Source: Nitrospira sp. (GTDB lineage: Bacteria > Nitrospirota > Nitrospiria > Nitrospirales > Nitrospiraceae). From it: 47,274 nucleotides of DNA. The stretch is taken from contig VGXB01000014.1 of NCBI GenBank assembly GCA_016873515.1, positions 1-47,274 of the forward strand, read 5' to 3'. The position numbers and the translations under genes were made by a program. The notes beneath the pieces were generated by a model. That model did no database searches. It had not been told where the DNA came from and saw only the letters and a list, made by a program, of their open reading frames with translations. Positions 14,404 to 47,274 of this stretch are shown one piece after another; within the stretch, counting starts at the first letter, position 1; each line of letters begins with the position of its first letter.

Positions 14404-14838
14404 ATGTATGACGTGCTTCCTACGGCGCTCACAGAACTGTGCAATGAAATCATCAAGACCCTGCACGTTCGTACTGAGGCCAAGGACTGGGAACAGTTCG
14501 AACTGAAACGCGTGGTGGGGAATCCAAATCAGCCTATTCTGTTCAGAGGTTTCGGCCTCCCGGACCGAAGTGGTGCTCAACATGCACGACTTGTGGTCAT
14601 GATGGAAGAACGGAGCCGGAAACAAGACTTAAACGCCGAACATGTTCGAGAACGATTTCAACTCACCAATCGGGAGCAGTCAGTACTCGAGCATCTTGCA
14701 CGGGGCTGGACAAATAAGGAAATTGCCAACGGCCTCCATATTACCGAGCAAACCGTGAAAGCGCACATCCAGCATGTCAAGCAAAAGACCAATGCCACAA
14801 CTCGGACCGGCATACTTGTTCAGATATTCAATGCTTAG
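14404..14838 (+). CDS. LuxR-type HTH transcriptional regulator
   Basis: A 144-aa regulator. The C-terminal 60 residues form a LuxR/NarL helix-turn-helix: FQLTNREQSVLEHLARGWTN, KEIANGLHITEQTVKAHIQH, with the usual T-x-R-E...G-x-x-N-K-E-I-A...V-K-x-H core (about residues 84-140). The N-terminal 80 residues (HVRTEAKDWEQFELKRVVG) are not a standard receiver domain with a phospho-acceptor Asp; they look like a small sensor or dimerisation region. The gene begins exactly where the opposite-strand truncated tail ends, so its own 5' end or promoter may have been rearranged. Target genes are unknown. Confidence 0.82.
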   Translation: MYDVLPTALTELCNEIIKTLHVRTEAKDWEQFELKRVVGNPNQPILFRGFGLPDRSGAQHARLVVMMEERSRKQDLNAEHVRERFQLTNREQSVLEHLARGWTNKEIANGLHITEQTVKAHIQHVKQKTNATTRTGILVQIFNA

Positions 14839-15104
14839 CAGCATCGCACCCAGCTTCCGAAGCATGTTTCAAGTTTCTTGCTTCAAGTAGCGCTTTGCTC
14901 CTTGAACCTTGCCCTTTCCCCACTCCACCTCTATTGCAAATACTCCACAGTGAATACTCATTCACACAGAGTAAACTCACCATGAGCTTTATTTATTTTA
15001 TTATTCAATAGTTTATGGCGCATATGTGCTGGCCTGCTTATTGCTAAGGAGTTAGGCTTAGTGTGTCACAATGTGCCCTTACATAAACGTGTTGTGGAGG
15101 GACC

Positions 15105-39090: not shown

Positions 39091-41508
39091 TTAAAAGAAC
39101 CATTGCCCACGAAAGAAAAAGGACCGCGGCATTCCGGCATGCGCCACACCGAGACCGATACTGCCCTCTCCTGAATTAAGAAAGTACTTTTGGTCGAGCG
39201 CATTCACGATATCGAATCCCAGCAGGAATTTCTGCCCGTGCCAAGGCAACGGAATGACATGGCTGACTGAAAAGTTATAGATCGTGTACGTCGGGCTATG
39301 GGTCGAGTTTGTCTTGGCGCCTGTGTCCGCCGTCCGTAATCCCGAGGCAAACAGCACTTGGCCGGTCAAGTGGGTCCGCTCAAGCAATTGATAACTCAAA
39401 ATTCCTGACGCGGTCAGCGTCTGTTGATGGTCGCAATGGACGCCGCTGCGCGAATTGATATCGGCAATTTCTTCAAAATGCACTAGATTGTGCCCGGACT
39501 GCAAGCCATAGCCCTTACACTGTCCCCAGGCGATGTTGCCACGTCCGGTTAAGTTTTCCATCAACCACACCTTGAGGGCAGCATCGGCTCCCCTGGTCCA
39601 TCCCCGGTCAAAGGCTAAATAGTTCAGCATGGGCGTCGAGCCGAACTGGTGGGCGTCCGACATGTAGTTGGCTAACTTGTAGTAGCCCGTCAGTTGCAGC
39701 GTCGCCCAATCTGTCAGGGCATGGACGCTGCCAATCTGGAAATAATGGGCCCGCTCGGCTCGCGGCAAATTATTGGTGGTAGCCTCCGGATGCGCCTTCG
39801 TTCTCTCTGTATTCAAGGTGGTGGTGTTAATCCGCTCCAGATTCGGCGGGGTAAAGAGCCGGCCATAGTATGCGTGGACGGCGTTGGCGGAATTGTACCG
39901 GTATGTCACCCCGACTCGTGGACTGATTTGTCCTTCATTTCGTAGATACTGCACAGTATCGGCACGCACACCGAAGTTGAACGTCCAATGTTCATTCGGT
40001 GTCCACTGATCTTGTATCCAGAACTCCTGCCGCCACCCGACAAGCCGGTTGTCGCCGCCGCGGTTGATCACGCCTCCGGTTGGGTCCGAGGTTGAGTCAT
40101 TAGGGTCGGTCGACAAAAATGTTGACAATCTCGTCTTATTGATCGCTTGGGCCCGATCAACTTGGAACCCCGCCTTAATCAAGTGTTCCTTGCTATGCAC
40201 ATATGTATAATCCATGCGCACACCACCGGAGTAGCCGATGCGGTCTTGGCTGCCGGCCGAGAAGGGTTCATCTTCCTCGGCCGTATAGGCCAACACATTG
40301 AGCGGATCCGTTCGAAAGGTGGCTCTCGTCTGACGGAAATACCCGGCGAGGCTAAAGAAGTTACGGGTGTTGATATCGCGCCGCCACACCAGATGTCCGT
40401 ATTGGTTATTTTCCTTCTGATTCTCATCAAGCCTGTCCGAGGGTACTGGCGTAAAACCCGACATGAGGCTAAGAATAGTTGAGTTCGGGGTTTGCCCGGG
40501 GAAAGTCGGAATCTGATATTTCGCGATAGAGTTCAAGAACAAGGCAGTGAAATTATTGTTATTGTCCAACTGATAGTCACCACGGAACATCGTCTGGTTG
40601 CGCTCGCTTTGGCCGTGAAAAATTGAATGGCCGACAGTCGGCGGCTCAATGCCTCGATTCGTCGCCGTATGGCTGTTCAGAAAGTAATAGCGGAACTTCT
40701 CGCCGATCGTGCCTCCATACTCAAATGAGGGGTTGATCGTGTTATTCGACCCGCCGAACATCTGGACCGACCCAAATCCCGGCTTTGTGCCGCTCTTCGT
40801 CGTAATATCGATGAGTGCGGTCGTCCTATTTCCCACATTCGCTTCCATCCCACCCAAGACAATATCGGCCCGCTCCCAGGTACGAGGCGAAATCACATCG
40901 GAAAATGTCGACGAAATCGTATCAGGAATGGGTATCCCGTCGATTCGCAATTGGATATTGGCATGATCCTGCCTGATATGAAGTTGCTTCAACGATCCAT
41001 AGACCACGCCGGGAATCGTCAGCAACACGTCGTGTAATTCGCTGTTGTTGCCCCGGGGAAGGAGTTCGATTTCCTTCCGGCTGAGTGAATAGGTCTCACT
41101 GGATGCCGTGGTGTTGACTGGCGGCAGGGGTGCCACAACCTCCAGTGACACTTCTTTAGTCTTTGAAAGGGTCAGGGTGACCGATTTCAGAGGTTCTTTT
41201 CCCAGCGTGAGCACGACATATTCACTCCGATAGGTTTCTTGGACCGCACTGACGGAGTACGTGCCGCTCTCCGGCACAGTCACCTTGAATTCACCAGCAT
41301 CATTTGAAACTCCGGACGAGACGAGTTCCCCTTCTTGACTCTTGACTTCAATGATTGCCTGCGAGACCCGCCGGAGATCTTGATTCTGAACCGTGCCCGT
41401 TATCGTGACCCGATCAACATCCGCCGCATAGACGGATGAACCAGAAATTATCCCTAGGACCGTGAATACCACGGACCATGCCAACCATTGCATTACTCGA
41501 AACTGCAT
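39091..41508 (-). CDS. TonB-dependent outer-membrane receptor
   Basis: An 805-aa outer-membrane receptor. A signal peptide (to about residue 29) is followed by a carboxypeptidase-regulatory-like beta domain (VTITGTVQNQDLRRVSQAII, residues 34-115). Next are a TonB-box-like KEVSLEVVAP, a plug domain (ELHDVLLTIPGVVYGS, then HIRQDHANIQLRIDGIPIPD), and a long beta-barrel ending in the aromatic F-x-x-x-x-W-F-F. The substrate cannot be read from sequence; the His-rich neighbours and the COG0523 genes suggest a metal or metal chelate. GGGAGGATAAA precedes the ATG. It is the middle gene of a three-gene minus-strand module. Confidence 0.92.
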   Translation of the reverse strand: MQFRVMQWLAWSVVFTVLGIISGSSVYAADVDRVTITGTVQNQDLRRVSQAIIEVKSQEGELVSSGVSNDAGEFKVTVPESGTYSVSAVQETYRSEYVVLTLGKEPLKSVTLTLSKTKEVSLEVVAPLPPVNTTASSETYSLSRKEIELLPRGNNSELHDVLLTIPGVVYGSLKQLHIRQDHANIQLRIDGIPIPDTISSTFSDVISPRTWERADIVLGGMEANVGNRTTALIDITTKSGTKPGFGSVQMFGGSNNTINPSFEYGGTIGEKFRYYFLNSHTATNRGIEPPTVGHSIFHGQSERNQTMFRGDYQLDNNNNFTALFLNSIAKYQIPTFPGQTPNSTILSLMSGFTPVPSDRLDENQKENNQYGHLVWRRDINTRNFFSLAGYFRQTRATFRTDPLNVLAYTAEEDEPFSAGSQDRIGYSGGVRMDYTYVHSKEHLIKAGFQVDRAQAINKTRLSTFLSTDPNDSTSDPTGGVINRGGDNRLVGWRQEFWIQDQWTPNEHWTFNFGVRADTVQYLRNEGQISPRVGVTYRYNSANAVHAYYGRLFTPPNLERINTTTLNTERTKAHPEATTNNLPRAERAHYFQIGSVHALTDWATLQLTGYYKLANYMSDAHQFGSTPMLNYLAFDRGWTRGADAALKVWLMENLTGRGNIAWGQCKGYGLQSGHNLVHFEEIADINSRSGVHCDHQQTLTASGILSYQLLERTHLTGQVLFASGLRTADTGAKTNSTHSPTYTIYNFSVSHVIPLPWHGQKFLLGFDIVNALDQKYFLNSGEGSIGLGVAHAGMPRSFFFRGQWFF

Positions 41509-41602: not shown

Positions 41603-41926
41603 TTAGTGGAGAGCAGGCGGAGCGCGCGAGGGGCCAGCGAACGACAACGCACCGGCCCTCAAGATGGGAGCAGCAGGTAATTCATATAACTCGCCCCGCT
41701 CACGGAAAGCCGGCCGGGGCACATCAACGTCGAGCACGCCCGCGATATGAGACTCAACCCATTGACAGAGATCGTTGTCGGAGTGTTCATGGCCGTCGGT
41801 GTCGGCGGCGGCCAATTCATGGTGCACGCTTTGCGCACCGGCAAAGGGCCCCAGGGCCACGAACAGGAGGATGAGACCGACCGACAGGCCGCCTCTACAG
41901 TGATCTGTGATACTCATGGCAACCAT
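41603..41926 (-). CDS. DUF2946-like His-rich small exported protein
   Basis: A 107-aa protein with one N-terminal hydrophobic segment (about residues 12-31, probable signal or anchor). A metal-ligand-rich stretch follows: VHHELAAADTDGHEHSDNDL with CQW, then ESHIAG. The His-rich core before a C-x-W resembles DUF2946 proteins found beside metal-responsive TonB receptors. The C-terminal 40 residues are Pro/Ala-rich. It is first in the module, 94 bp ahead of the receptor gene. The family assignment is tentative; periplasmic metal binding is the inference. Confidence 0.65.
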   Translation of the reverse strand: MVAMSITDHCRGGLSVGLILLFVALGPFAGAQSVHHELAAADTDGHEHSDNDLCQWVESHIAGVLDVDVPRPAFRERGELYELPAAPILRAGALSFAGPSRAPPALH

Positions 41927-43221: not shown

Positions 43222-43392
43222 TCAGTATTCTGATCGCTCACCGAACGGCAACAGCGCCAGGTGCCGCACGCGCTTGATCGCACGGGCAATTTCACGCTGC
43301 CGCTGTTGACTATTCCCTGTCATGCGGCGAGGGAGGATCCGTCCATTCTCCGTAATGAATCGCCGCAACCATTCGACATTCTTCCAATCCAC
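43222..43392 (-). CDS. rpsR: Ribosomal protein S18, start uncertain
   Basis: The frame reads [20 protein letters not shown], then [20 protein letters not shown] and [16 protein letters not shown], clearly the S18 core and C-terminus. From GTG 43392 it is only 56 aa, against about 75 usual, and lacks the Arg-rich N-terminus. The frame stays open upstream inside rpmG, encoding [13 protein letters not shown], but with no ATG, GTG or TTG; the only candidates are ATT codons (e.g. 43434, giving 70 aa). No N-terminal cysteines are present, so this is a zinc-free form. It is the last gene of the operon and overlaps rpmG if the longer start is used. Confidence 0.85.
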
Positions 43393-43396
43393 CGTC

Positions 43397-43555
43397 TTAC
43401 CGTTTTTCCTTATGCGCCGCGTGTTTGCGGCAATACGAGCAATACTTCTTCAGTTCGATCCGGTCCGGATCGTTCTTCTTGTTCTTCGTCGTCCAATAGA
43501 CCGATTTGCCCGGCGATTCGCAGCCGATACAGGCCACGGCAATGACTTCACGCAT
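43397..43555 (-). CDS. rpmG: Ribosomal protein L33
   Basis: The 52-aa protein reads [52 protein letters not shown]. It keeps both Cys pairs (C9-x-x-C12 and C40-x-x-C43), the zinc-ribbon (C+) form of L33. ATG 43555 follows GAGGGG at seven bases. It lies 21 bp downstream of rpmB and just upstream of, or overlapping, rpsR. In zinc-limitation operons of other bacteria the L33 copy is usually the cysteine-free form, so this one is atypical if the operon is Zur-type. Confidence 0.94.
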
Positions 43556-43576
43556 GATGCATCCCCTCTTTCCTTG

Positions 43577-43813
43577 CTAAATCTTTTCTCCGGCCGCCCG
43601 CATTTCTGAAACCACCGGGGCCAGGCCTCGTTTGTTGATGATCTTCATCCCGTGCGTCGAGACCGACAAGGTGATCCAGCGATTCTCTTCTGTCAAAAAG
43701 TAGCGTTTGCGCTGTAGGTTCGGCACAAATCGCCGTCTCGTCTTGTTGTTGGCATGACTCACGTTGTTTCCCGACACCGGCTTCTTCCCGGTCACCTGAC
43801 AATAGCGTCCCAT
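43577..43813 (-). CDS. rpmB: Ribosomal protein L28
   Basis: The 78-aa protein reads [20 protein letters not shown], then [10 protein letters not shown] and [12 protein letters not shown], typical of L28. Only one cysteine (Cys5) is present, so the zinc-ribbon CxxC pairs are missing: this is the C-minus form, as in E. coli. Two ATGs are adjacent; AAGGAGGA gives better spacing to the second (43813). It follows the 73-aa cysteine protein by about 39 bp and precedes rpmG. Confidence 0.94.
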
Positions 43814-43852
43814 CATTCCTCCTTTTCGTTGATTCGCTGTCCTGGCCGTCCG

Positions 43853-44074
43853 TCATGCGCTAGGGAGATCAGCCACACCACTGCTGTCCCAGAGCGTCAC
43901 GGCAATCTGACAGCATCGACAGAGTTGCCATATCTCTCCCGTCGCAGCGCGCCGTTCTAAATCGTCCACAACTCGAATACGGGTGACGACATCACGACCT
44001 TCACCGTGCTCGCGCAGATTGCAGAGCTCACAACCCAGTTCGTCCACTATCTGAATCTCTTCGAGATCAAACAT
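43853..44074 (-). CDS. 73-aa CxxC/CxCC small protein
   Basis: The product has two cysteine clusters, Cys15-x-x-Cys18 (GCELCNL) and Cys52-x-Cys54-Cys55 (LCRCCQI), 33 residues apart, with H23 between. Residues 26-48 form a charged linker (RDVVTRIRVVDDLERRAATG). This is a zinc-ribbon-like or treble-clef-like spacing. No family is recognised. ATG 44074 follows the GTPase stop (44079-44081) by four bases with GAGGAAGAG upstream, so it is translationally coupled to the COG0523 gene. A longer frame that starts inside the GTPase gene is less likely. A metal-carrier or adaptor role is an inference from context. Confidence 0.78.
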   Translation of the reverse strand: MFDLEEIQIVDELGCELCNLREHGEGRDVVTRIRVVDDLERRAATGEIWQLCRCCQIAVTLWDSSGVADLPSA

Positions 44075-44078
44075 CAGC

Positions 44079-45314
44079 TCAGCTCTCTTCCTCCGGCAAC
44101 AAGTCGTGCCGTTCGGCGCGTATGTGCCGCTTTTCCCATGTCGGCTTCTTGAAGGGATCACGAAAGGCACACCACAGCTCTTCGTCCAGGGCAAGCTCCG
44201 CTCTGGTCAACAGGCAAGCATCTAGCCGTCGTTTTAAGTCGACGCGATCAATCTCCTCGCCCATGAAGGCCAGTTCAATCCGGCGATCCCCAAATTCGAG
44301 ATCCCACACCTTGCGCAGTTCGTCGAGTGCCCCCTCTCCCTTCGGCCAGTGCCGATCCGGAATCGCCACCCACCAGCGACCCAGTCGCTCGTAGAGACAG
44401 TTGGTGCCAGCCTGCGACCACATGTAACAAGTCTTCGGTTGTGAGGCGACCCAGAAATATCCTTTGGATCGCAGCACACCCAGCCACTCCTCTTGCATTA
44501 ACAGCCAAAATCGGAACGGATGGAACGGCCGTTTCGCTCGATAGACGAACGTCCCTGTTTCACGATCGCCTTCTGGCAACGACGTGCCGCTCAACGCATG
44601 CATCCACCCGGGTGTGATTTCTAGCGCCGCCCCCTCATGAGGGCGCGTAGTCTCTAGCAACAAGGGATCACGGTCTCCCTGAGACACCGCCATGCACCCT
44701 GCATCAGGGTTGACCTGCCAAAGAAATCGCTCAAGACGCTCCCGTTCGACCGGCGTCACACGATCGCACTTGCTCAGCACGAGCGTCGTGCTGAATTCCA
44801 GTTGATCCGCCAGTAGTTCGGCGAGGGTTCGCGCATCGTCCGGTCCCGTGCCGAGTCCCCGCTCGCGGAGCGTGATCCCGGACTCATAGTCGTCCCAAAA
44901 ACGCTCCGCATCAACGACCGTCACCAAGTGGTCCAGGCGCGCGACAGCGGAAACGGCGACCCCCTCGGTCTCATCGGCATCGAAGAGATTGGCGATCAGG
45001 AGCGGATCCGTGCTACTCGAACTTTCAATGAGAATGGTGTCGTATTTGCCCAAGCTCGTCAGCCGAATGATCGCTTCAGCGACATGCTGACGCAAGGAAC
45101 ACTGCGTACACGCAGCCGTCAACTCGACGAGAGCTTCACCGCGAAGGTAGTGCTCTCCGCCGAAAATCTCGATCTCATTAGTCAATCCGCTCAGGTCGTT
45201 CGTAATAATCGCCGTCCGCGTTGGATTCAGTTCACGCACCAGACGCCGAAGCACTGTCGTCTTCCCGGCACCGAGAAAACCTGATACCACGATAACGCTT
45301 ACCTTATTACTCAT
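44079..45314 (-). CDS. COG0523 GTPase, paralog 1 (variant metal motif)
   Basis: A 411-aa ZigA/YciC-type zinc-metallochaperone-class GTPase. Walker A is [10 protein letters not shown] (residues 11-20). The metal motif reads AACTQCSLR (Cys69-x-x-Cys72) instead of the usual CxCC. ILIESSSSTDPLL and the LSKCD specificity motif follow. A C-terminal CobW_C domain has VLRSKGYFWVASQP, WSQAGTN, GDRRIELAFMGEEID and LDACLLTRAEL. ATG 45314 follows GAGAGGAAG; an in-frame start farther upstream would overlap the preceding gene's end. It lies 41 bp downstream of paralog 2. Confidence 0.94.
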   Translation of the reverse strand: MSNKVSVIVVSGFLGAGKTTVLRRLVRELNPTRTAIITNDLSGLTNEIEIFGGEHYLRGEALVELTAACTQCSLRQHVAEAIIRLTSLGKYDTILIESSSSTDPLLIANLFDADETEGVAVSAVARLDHLVTVVDAERFWDDYESGITLRERGLGTGPDDARTLAELLADQLEFSTTLVLSKCDRVTPVERERLERFLWQVNPDAGCMAVSQGDRDPLLLETTRPHEGAALEITPGWMHALSGTSLPEGDRETGTFVYRAKRPFHPFRFWLLMQEEWLGVLRSKGYFWVASQPKTCYMWSQAGTNCLYERLGRWWVAIPDRHWPKGEGALDELRKVWDLEFGDRRIELAFMGEEIDRVDLKRRLDACLLTRAELALDEELWCAFRDPFKKPTWEKRHIRAERHDLLPEEES

Positions 45315-45355
45315 ACCGCTTCCTCTCAACTCCTGGGTTCTCAACCCACTCCGAC

Positions 45356-46555
45356 TCAGCTCCAACGCGGAAACGGATCCGGATATTTCTGCCAGGCAGG
45401 TTTGCCCTCGGCCAGCTCCGCATCGGTCAGCAGGCATGCGTCGAGGTCTGCACGGAGCGCCGTTTCATCCATCCGCTGACCGATGATGACGATCTGTTGG
45501 CGCCGGTCGCCGAAATTGGGATGCCACATCGCCTTGAGCTGCGCCTTCACCTCAGCGGAGTCGGGCCACTGCTCTTCCGGTATCATAGCCCGCCACCACC
45601 CCATCGGGCCGAGTTGCCACACAGTCCCAGCCAGCGACAGCAGCCCGATAAACTCCAGCCGACCAGCCAAATACACCAACCCTTTGGCGCGTAACACGCC
45701 GGGCCAAGGTCGGCCCAACTGGTCCGCCAACCGCTGCGCATGAAACGGGCGACGACTCCGATAGACAAAGCTTGCAATGTCGTATTCTTGGGATTCCGAA
45801 CGCGTGCCTTCGCGCAGCGTCTTCATCCACCCAGCCGCCTGTGAGGCTCTGGCGAATTCGAATCGTCCTGTATTGAGGATCTCTGCTGGTGATACGTGCC
45901 CATATTGCACCGGGCGGATCACCGCGTCTGGATTCAACGTTGCGAGAATCGTTGTCAGTTCCTGCAGCGCCTGCGGTTCCATCAAGTCGGTCTTGTTCAC
46001 AACGAGCACGTTCGCAAATTCCACCTGATCGATCAGCAGATCGGTGATGGTTCGCTTATCCTGCTCGCTCACCGCCAGGCCGCGCTCTTTCAACTCCACG
46101 CCTTCTCGATAGTCGTGGAGAAACCGAGGGCCGTCCACTACCGTGACCATGGTATCGAGCCGCGACAGGTCAGCCAACGCCTGCCCCTGCGCGTTTTCAA
46201 ACGTAAAGGTCTCCGCTACCGGCATCGGCTCTGAGATACCAGTTGACTCGATGAGCAGATACTCGAACCGCCCCTCTTCCGCTAGCCGGGCGACTTCGCT
46301 CAGCAGGTCTTCCCGTAAAGTGCAACAGATGCAGCCGTTGCTCATTTCCACTAGCTTCTCTTCTGTGCGACTTAGCGCCGCACCGCCGTCAGCCACCAGC
46401 AGCGCATCAATGTTCACCTCGCTCATGTCGTTCACGATCACCGCCACGCGTAGCCCTTCCCGATTGTGCAGTACGTGGTTAAGTACCGTGGTCTTTCCTG
46501 CTCCAAGAAATCCCGACAAGACCGTCACCGGTAACCGCGCCGTGTCTGTGCGCAT
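45356..46555 (-). CDS. COG0523 GTPase, paralog 2
   Basis: A 399-aa GTPase with canonical motifs: Walker [11 protein letters not shown] (residues 14-23), the metal motif [28 protein letters not shown], and NKTD. The CobW_C domain includes [42 protein letters not shown] and [11 protein letters not shown]. This is the ZigA/YciC type linked to zinc limitation in several bacteria. The ATG directly abuts the stop codon of paralog 3 (TAGATG). Family function is GTP-driven metal delivery; the target protein is unknown. Confidence 0.95.
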
Positions 46556-47274
46556 CTACCGCTCCTCCGACGTCGTCGACAGACCATCCGATTCCACCAC
46601 TGTTTCCATTGGCGGAAAGCGGTCCGGCTTCCCCTCCCACGACGACCGCCCGGAGGCCCATTCCGCTTCCGTCACCAGACAAGCGTCCAGCTGCGCCGTC
46701 AGCGCCGCATGATCCATTCGTCGACCGATCAGCACCAGTTCTTGACTGCGATCGCCGTACTCCGAATCCCACACTCCCTGGAGGCGCTGATACTCTTCTT
46801 CCTCTTCCGGCCAATCATCCTTGGGCATCGCGGCATACCAGCGCCCGGCCCACCGCACGTTGCCGGTCCCGCCCGCCTGCGACCACAGCCCGATGAGATC
46901 CGGGCGCGTGGCGATCCAGAACAGCCCCTTCGACCGGAGGACGCCAGGCCATGGCTCCTGGAAGCAGTGCCAGAGCCGCTCCGGATGAAACGGACGTCTA
47001 GCCCGGTACACCACATTGGTAATCCCGTATTCGTCGGCCTCGGACCGTTCGTGCCCGCGTAAGGATTTCATCCAGCCCGCGGCCTGACTGGCCCGCTCAA
47101 AATCGAAGGCCCCGGTGTTCAAGATGACGTTGAGATTAATTTGCCCATGCCGAATCGAGACACACCGCGCTTCAGGGTTCAACGCGGCAAGGATGGCCGT
47201 CAGTTCGCACAGCTCGCTCTCGGACACCAGGTCCGCCTTGTTGATCAGCAGCACATCGGCAAACTCGACTTGAT
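46556..47274 (-). CDS. COG0523 GTPase, paralog 3 (partial)
   Basis: Only the C-terminal 238 residues or so lie in the window; the gene continues past the right edge. The visible part begins QVEFADVLLINKADLVSESE, including the NKAD specificity motif. It continues through the CobW_C domain: VVYRARRPFHPERLWHCFQE, VLRSKGLFWIATRPD, WSQAGGTG, GDRSQELVLIGRRMD and LDACLVTEAEW. It is closely similar in layout to paralog 2. Its stop abuts the start of paralog 2. The P-loop and CxCC motif are outside the window and cannot be judged. Confidence 0.94.
   Translation of the reverse strand, partial: QVEFADVLLINKADLVSESELCELTAILAALNPEARCVSIRHGQINLNVILNTGAFDFERASQAAGWMKSLRGHERSEADEYGITNVVYRARRPFHPERLWHCFQEPWPGVLRSKGLFWIATRPDLIGLWSQAGGTGNVRWAGRWYAAMPKDDWPEEEEEYQRLQGVWDSEYGDRSQELVLIGRRMDHAALTAQLDACLVTEAEWASGRSSWEGKPDRFPPMETVVESDGLSTTSEER

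Follow-up and report, generated by a model that had tools for sequence, protein, structure and literature searches.

A conserved small cysteine protein encoded next to an atypical COG0523 GTPase in a putative zinc-starvation island of Nitrospira

The CXCC motif has been stated to be common to all members of the COG0523 family of metal GTPases (PMC2770081), and in one of these, MigC, all three cysteines of the motif bind zinc, zinc stimulates the GTPase activity, and GTP hydrolysis is linked to the binding of metal (PMC12208494). In the related mycobacterial protein Mrf, CXXC replaces CXCC (PMC13418864, PMC2770081) and the GTPase motifs are missing from the Mrf protein Rv0106 (PMC2770081); the gene order in mycobacteria is mrf - rpmB - rpmG - rpsN - rpsR (PMC7174638). 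It is difficult to identify the partners and clients of COG0523 metal GTPases, and the gene described here provides a genetically linked candidate for an atypical, CxxC-bearing member. If this holds true, the mycobacterial pairing of zinc-sparing ribosomal genes and a modified COG0523 protein has a counterpart in Nitrospira that includes an additional component. The cited literature on the Mrf operon reports no equivalent of this component, and the ZigA and MigC systems as described in the cited literature do not include a small cysteine protein.

The gene in question, denoted p73, was found in the window, the whole stretch of 47,274 nucleotides from Nitrospira sp. that was analyzed (contig VGXB01000014.1), within a gene island, the relevant features of which are listed in Table 1. 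Translation of positions 43853-44074 on the minus strand yields MFDLEEIQIVDELGCELCNLREHGEGRDVVTRIRVVDDLERRAATGEIWQLCRCCQIAVTLWDSSGVADLPSA, 73 amino acids followed by a stop, with cysteines at positions 15, 18, 52, 54, and 55. The sequence-only reading of this DNA, which gave no strand, had placed such a frame four bases past the stop of a GTPase gene and ahead of ribosomal genes, and this is what we find: on the minus strand, the bases GCTG separate the GTPase3 stop codon TGA from the p73 ATG, a tight spacing that suggests translational coupling of the two genes, and the genes 3' of p73 are rpmB (L28), rpmG (L33), and then a truncated rpsR (S18).

Table 1. Features of the window at and around the p73 gene
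Feature	Coordinates	Strand	Description
p73	43853..44074	minus	73 aa + stop; C15-x2-C18 and C52-x-C54-C55; ATG 44074-44072, stop 43855-43853
GTPase3	44079..45314	minus	COG0523/ZigA-like; Walker motif intact, C69-T-Q-C72 replaces CxCC
ZigA2	45356..46555	minus	COG0523 GTPase, canonical GCICC (C75, C77, C78); ZigA model 585.6 bits vs cut-off 600
ZigA1	46556..47272	minus	C-terminal part of ZigA-like GTPase, gene cut by contig end; ZigA model 260.8 bits over 232 aa
rpmB (island L28)	43577..43816	minus	PF00830 5.8e-26; zinc-finger cysteines absent, one Cys only
rpmG (island L33)	43397..43555	minus	PF00471 1e-17; both CxxC pairs unexpectedly kept
rpsR (S18)	43222..43392	minus	PF01084 2.1e-22; N-terminally truncated, GTG start, directly behind L33 stop
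TonB-dependent outer-membrane receptor	39091..41508	minus	PF00593 4.8e-14; same order in G006 and G019
DUF2946-like gene	41603-41926		precedes TonB receptor; DUF2946 0.0076, below cut-off

Given that five more genomes encode p73, mostly with low dN/dS, and that none of the five cysteines varies even in a homolog with 40% identity, p73 is a genuine gene and not a chance open reading frame. Conservation of the frame and of the cysteines in related genomes, on which the sequence-only reading had staked its claim, is thus borne out across six genomes. Whole-genome searches of the family (175 genomes) and of the class (269 genomes) detected p73 in the same six genomes; the carriers are all Nitrospiraceae and belong to three genera, four to one genus and one to each of two others. 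A phylum sample of 395 genomes contained nothing beyond weak matches (E-values of 0.001-0.1), which we take to be due to chance, several of them containing stops or lying in long unrelated frames. Searches of plasmids produced no relative at useful E-values and searches of viral contigs produced none. The farthest homolog, with 75 aa and 40% identity (ATG at L062:8378), is encoded in genome G449 directly downstream of a GTPase that is 63% identical to GTPase3. Apart from the five cysteines, the residues W49-Q50-L51, Q56, A58, L61-W62, and P71-S72 are invariant across the six homologs. Pairwise dN/dS values mostly fall between 0.18 and 0.29 (2 of 10 pairs are higher, at 0.47 and 0.80), which indicates that p73 is under purifying selection. 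A short passenger gene that is carried along by the island and is unrelated to zinc could also show the narrow range (6 of 269 genomes) and the residence in a mobile island that are observed for p73; however, both the dN/dS values and the retention of every one of the cysteines at 40% identity point to selection on this protein and render this explanation very improbable.

The GTPase that precedes p73 contains both the cobW (PF02492, 1.5e-29) and the CobW_C (PF07683, 7e-20) domains, an architecture common to ZigA (NF038288) and MigC, as well as the Walker A sequence GFLGAGKTT, and is a COG0523 protein by domain content. Among the family models, ZigA yields the best score; this score, 348.6 bits, is well under the cut-off of 600, whereas ZigA2 nearly reaches it. 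The sequence-only reading referred to the CxCC metal motif of COG0523 proteins: such a motif, in the form CICC, is indeed present in ZigA2 upstream and in the complete copies of ZigA1 in G006, G071, and G246, but the protein adjacent to p73 has CTQC, and its p73-linked orthologs have CTQC, CTRC, CNQC, or CAGC where the neighboring ZigA proteins show CICC. Because CxxC stands where the published definition has CXCC, we consider GTPase3 an atypical member of COG0523, and given that MigC uses all three cysteines, the loss of the middle one should matter. GTPase3 and its orthologs are monophyletic among the ZigA-like COG0523 proteins compared (support 100/99). Two further CxxC-type proteins were noticed: a GTPase in genome G257, which lacks p73, lies outside the GTPase3 clade, and a fourth COG0523 GTPase of the island (L009:10734-12122), with CVGC for CxCC, forms a clade of its own with the G257 protein and is not next to p73.

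Orthologs of GTPase3 (about 60% identity or more) were identified in eight genomes, in six of which p73 lies immediately downstream. In each of these six, p73 is positioned between GTPase3 and rpmB, so that the proposed coupling to a COG0523 GTPase can be narrowed to a single subfamily of these proteins in an island with the gene content of a zinc-starvation regulon. The two genomes that possess a GTPase3 ortholog but lack p73, G008 and G083, also lack the CxxC of the GTPase (...PCSWRR... or ...SCSWRR...). Given that G449, which carries p73, branches off outside G008 in the tree as drawn, the simplest reading is that p73 and the CxxC of GTPase3 were lost together. The G083 gene contains an in-frame TGA and the G008 protein has a long branch; both losses may go back to one event in genes undergoing decay, and they back the coupling of p73 with GTPase3 only weakly. 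Altogether, p73 is present in 6 of 8 genomes with GTPase3 and in 0 of 167 without it (one-sided 8e-10 under the assumption of independent genomes, which these are not), and both operon linkage and function contribute to this exclusive co-occurrence. The six p73 genomes are related and the island travels as a block, so the linkage can stem from joint inheritance. That p73 is a stand-alone metallothionein-like buffer or sponge for zinc, induced together with its neighbors but having no specific partner, we consider rather unlikely: five invariant cysteines in 73 residues, the absence of a conserved histidine, and the location in a zinc-starvation island would suit such a role, but p73 strictly adjoins one GTPase subfamily, the additional invariant positions W49-Q50-L51, L61-W62, and P71-S72 suggest a folded surface, and a sponge would be an odd product under zinc starvation.

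Judging by gene content, the island is likely to be a zinc-starvation cassette. It encodes an L28 that lacks the zinc ligands (the six p73 genomes also possess a housekeeping L28 with CxxC...CxxC, in the genome of the window at G000:C1), together with S14, S18, several ZigA-like and other COG0523 GTPases, dihydroorotase, TonB receptors, and a ZIP-like membrane protein, named from sequence inspection only. Zinc-sparing paralogs and zinc-handling genes accordingly share one island, as is the case for the gene content of Zur regulons. The sparing of zinc is incomplete because the island L33, despite its cysteine-poor L28 neighbor, retains both CxxC pairs; this L33 also differs from the housekeeping L33 by a short insertion (about ESPGKSV).

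De novo search revealed a palindrome, ATTGCAAATnATTTGCAAT, which, with three or fewer mismatches, occurs at 11 sites in 9 genomes (0 for the reversed control), with one site at the island in each of the 8 genomes that carry the island (sites include G000:C27:23924-23942, L062:6340, L063:5777, L064:9528, and L094:1501); it is a likely operator. In five island genomes, the palindrome precedes a run of genes coding for a PF02552-like protein, a 72-aa CxxC protein, a small membrane protein, and S18. This run continues on one strand to p73 in G006, G071, and G246, and its two parts are found on different contigs in G000 and G019. The same genome encodes a Fur-family protein, with a degenerate copy of the palindrome upstream of its gene, and the island would presumably be controlled by a repressor of the Zur type; NCBIfam does not place the Fur-family protein as Zur, and a scan for proteobacterial-type Zur boxes found none, the palindrome not matching them. 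Near the presumed operator end, the island encodes a second conserved small protein of 72-76 aa, with CAQC (L009:9306-9536, L029:16743-16961, L096:2165-2383), which has no match in Pfam or NCBIfam.

In layout, the island resembles the Mrf operon (MSMEG_6065-6070; Rv0106): both combine a COG0523-related protein containing CXXC with adjacent rpmB and rpmG, paralogs of S14 and S18, and a context of zinc starvation, and GTPase3 shows two features of Mrf, the motif itself and the location beside an L28 of the zinc-free set (PMC13418864, PMC7174638). The two systems differ in that GTPase3 retains Walker A and falls below the cut-off of the NCBIfam MRF model (NF047431; 142.8 bits, cut-off 375) and in that the island L33 has cysteines. 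The suggestion that p73 is a ribosome-associated factor, made when only the sequence was at hand, can be elaborated on this basis: GTPase3 would be Mrf-like and p73 a zinc-sensitive accessory that helps a factor for hibernation or assembly to be positioned on zinc-free-type ribosomes. The order GTPase - p73 - rpmB - rpmG and the presence of rpsN and rpsR at other positions in the island are reminiscent of the mycobacterial arrangement (PMC7174638), and the CXXC of Mrf is shared (PMC13418864, PMC2770081). Nevertheless, GTPase3 is closer in score to ZigA than to Mrf and, unlike Rv0106 (PMC2770081), keeps a GTPase motif, the island L33 is not cysteine-free, and p73 carries no ribosome-binding signature. 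We therefore regard this scenario as unlikely. The link to ribosomal genes is circumstantial because zinc regulation alone accounts for a zinc-sparing L28 paralog.

Searches with p73 against Pfam, NCBIfam, PHROGs, and PDB sequences found nothing significant, in agreement with its initial description as undescribed; p73 represents an orphan family of narrow distribution, which extends a familiar type of zinc-starvation operon by a candidate partner protein. Pfam detects no GTPase domain in p73, and its membership in COG0523 is not supported. The zinc-ribbon ribosomal proteins (Cys-bearing L28, L33, S14, L31) are similarly short and have two CxxC-type pairs, and p73 is encoded beside ribosomal genes, but it differs from them in having no match to any ribosomal protein family in Pfam or NCBIfam; a relationship to the L28 zinc finger was rejected, the profile comparison with cysteine-bearing L28 giving a probability of 7.7% over 12 columns only. 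DUF7830 (PF25169) was aligned with the LCxCC helix region near the C-terminus of two p73 homologs with E-values of 0.35 and 0.063, and the scores of 11.2 and 13.6 bits, far under the gathering score of 27.5 bits, do not support membership. The second cysteine cluster had been likened to the CxCC of COG0523 proteins, and the likeness in spacing stands; homology of the p73 segment CELCxLRE to the CxCC segment of the neighboring GTPases is not supported, as shuffled sequences match the local score in 14 to 224 of 300 cases, depending on the pair.

The AlphaFold2 model of the p73 monomer, built from six sequences, is of middling confidence (pLDDT 71, pTM 0.50) and comprises a strand (7-10), two helices (16-24 and 29-44), a strand (49-52), and a helix (53-64); a fold search with this model against PDB and BFVD/viral structure models found no match. 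In the model, a helix begins at the second cysteine group, an arrangement also seen in treble-clef zinc fingers. Known clients of COG0523 proteins include zinc proteins, as exemplified by ZNG1 with METAP1. Hence p73 might be a zinc client of GTPase3, a treble-clef-like zinc finger (CxxC, then LCxxC at the helix start) that depends on the GTPase for its metallation when zinc is scarce. The CxxC spacing of C15/C18 and C52/C55 and the predicted strand and helix around the second pair are compatible with such a role, but a zinc finger, for which four ligands suffice, would not require the invariant C54, p73 has no fold match, and a new zinc-requiring protein would be costly in starvation unless its role is regulatory. 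We consider this alternative unlikely but the most serious of those discussed here.

A metal protein linked to a GTPase fits p73, and the reading that we prefer, which is tentative but quite possible, is that p73 is a thiolate metal-binding partner of GTPase3, most likely binding zinc, that is made in zinc starvation. Under this scenario, p73 would be produced from the large zinc-sparing operon when zinc is limiting and would work alongside the neighboring atypical GTPase, and may do so in physical contact with it. Given that GTPase3 is devoid of the middle cysteine of CxCC, the CxxC and CxCC of p73 could complete the site, charge it with metal, or remove metal from it, and the two proteins together would deliver scarce zinc to a client or withdraw it from one. 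A more specific version of this partnership, in which p73 supplies the missing thiolates of GTPase3 in trans to form a split metal site, so that the two proteins would constitute a two-component zinc GTPase where the nucleotide state controls the transfer of zinc between the subunits, is attractive but quite doubtful.

The island of the window is 96.5% identical at the DNA level to that of G246, from another genus, over 3.9 kb (window 43393-47274 versus L029:9686-13567), whereas the housekeeping L28 loci of the two genomes are only 71.5% identical; given this difference, the island most likely moved between genera, probably by recent horizontal transfer. The relatives carry a longer copy of rpsR at the upstream end of the island, and relative to G246, where this longer S18 gene occupies that end, the island of the window breaks at 43222-43392. 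In G449, a DAHP synthase fragment lies beside the palindrome and another stretch of DAHP synthase lies beyond the island (L062:6348-7013 and 14409-14999), as if duplicated by recombination.
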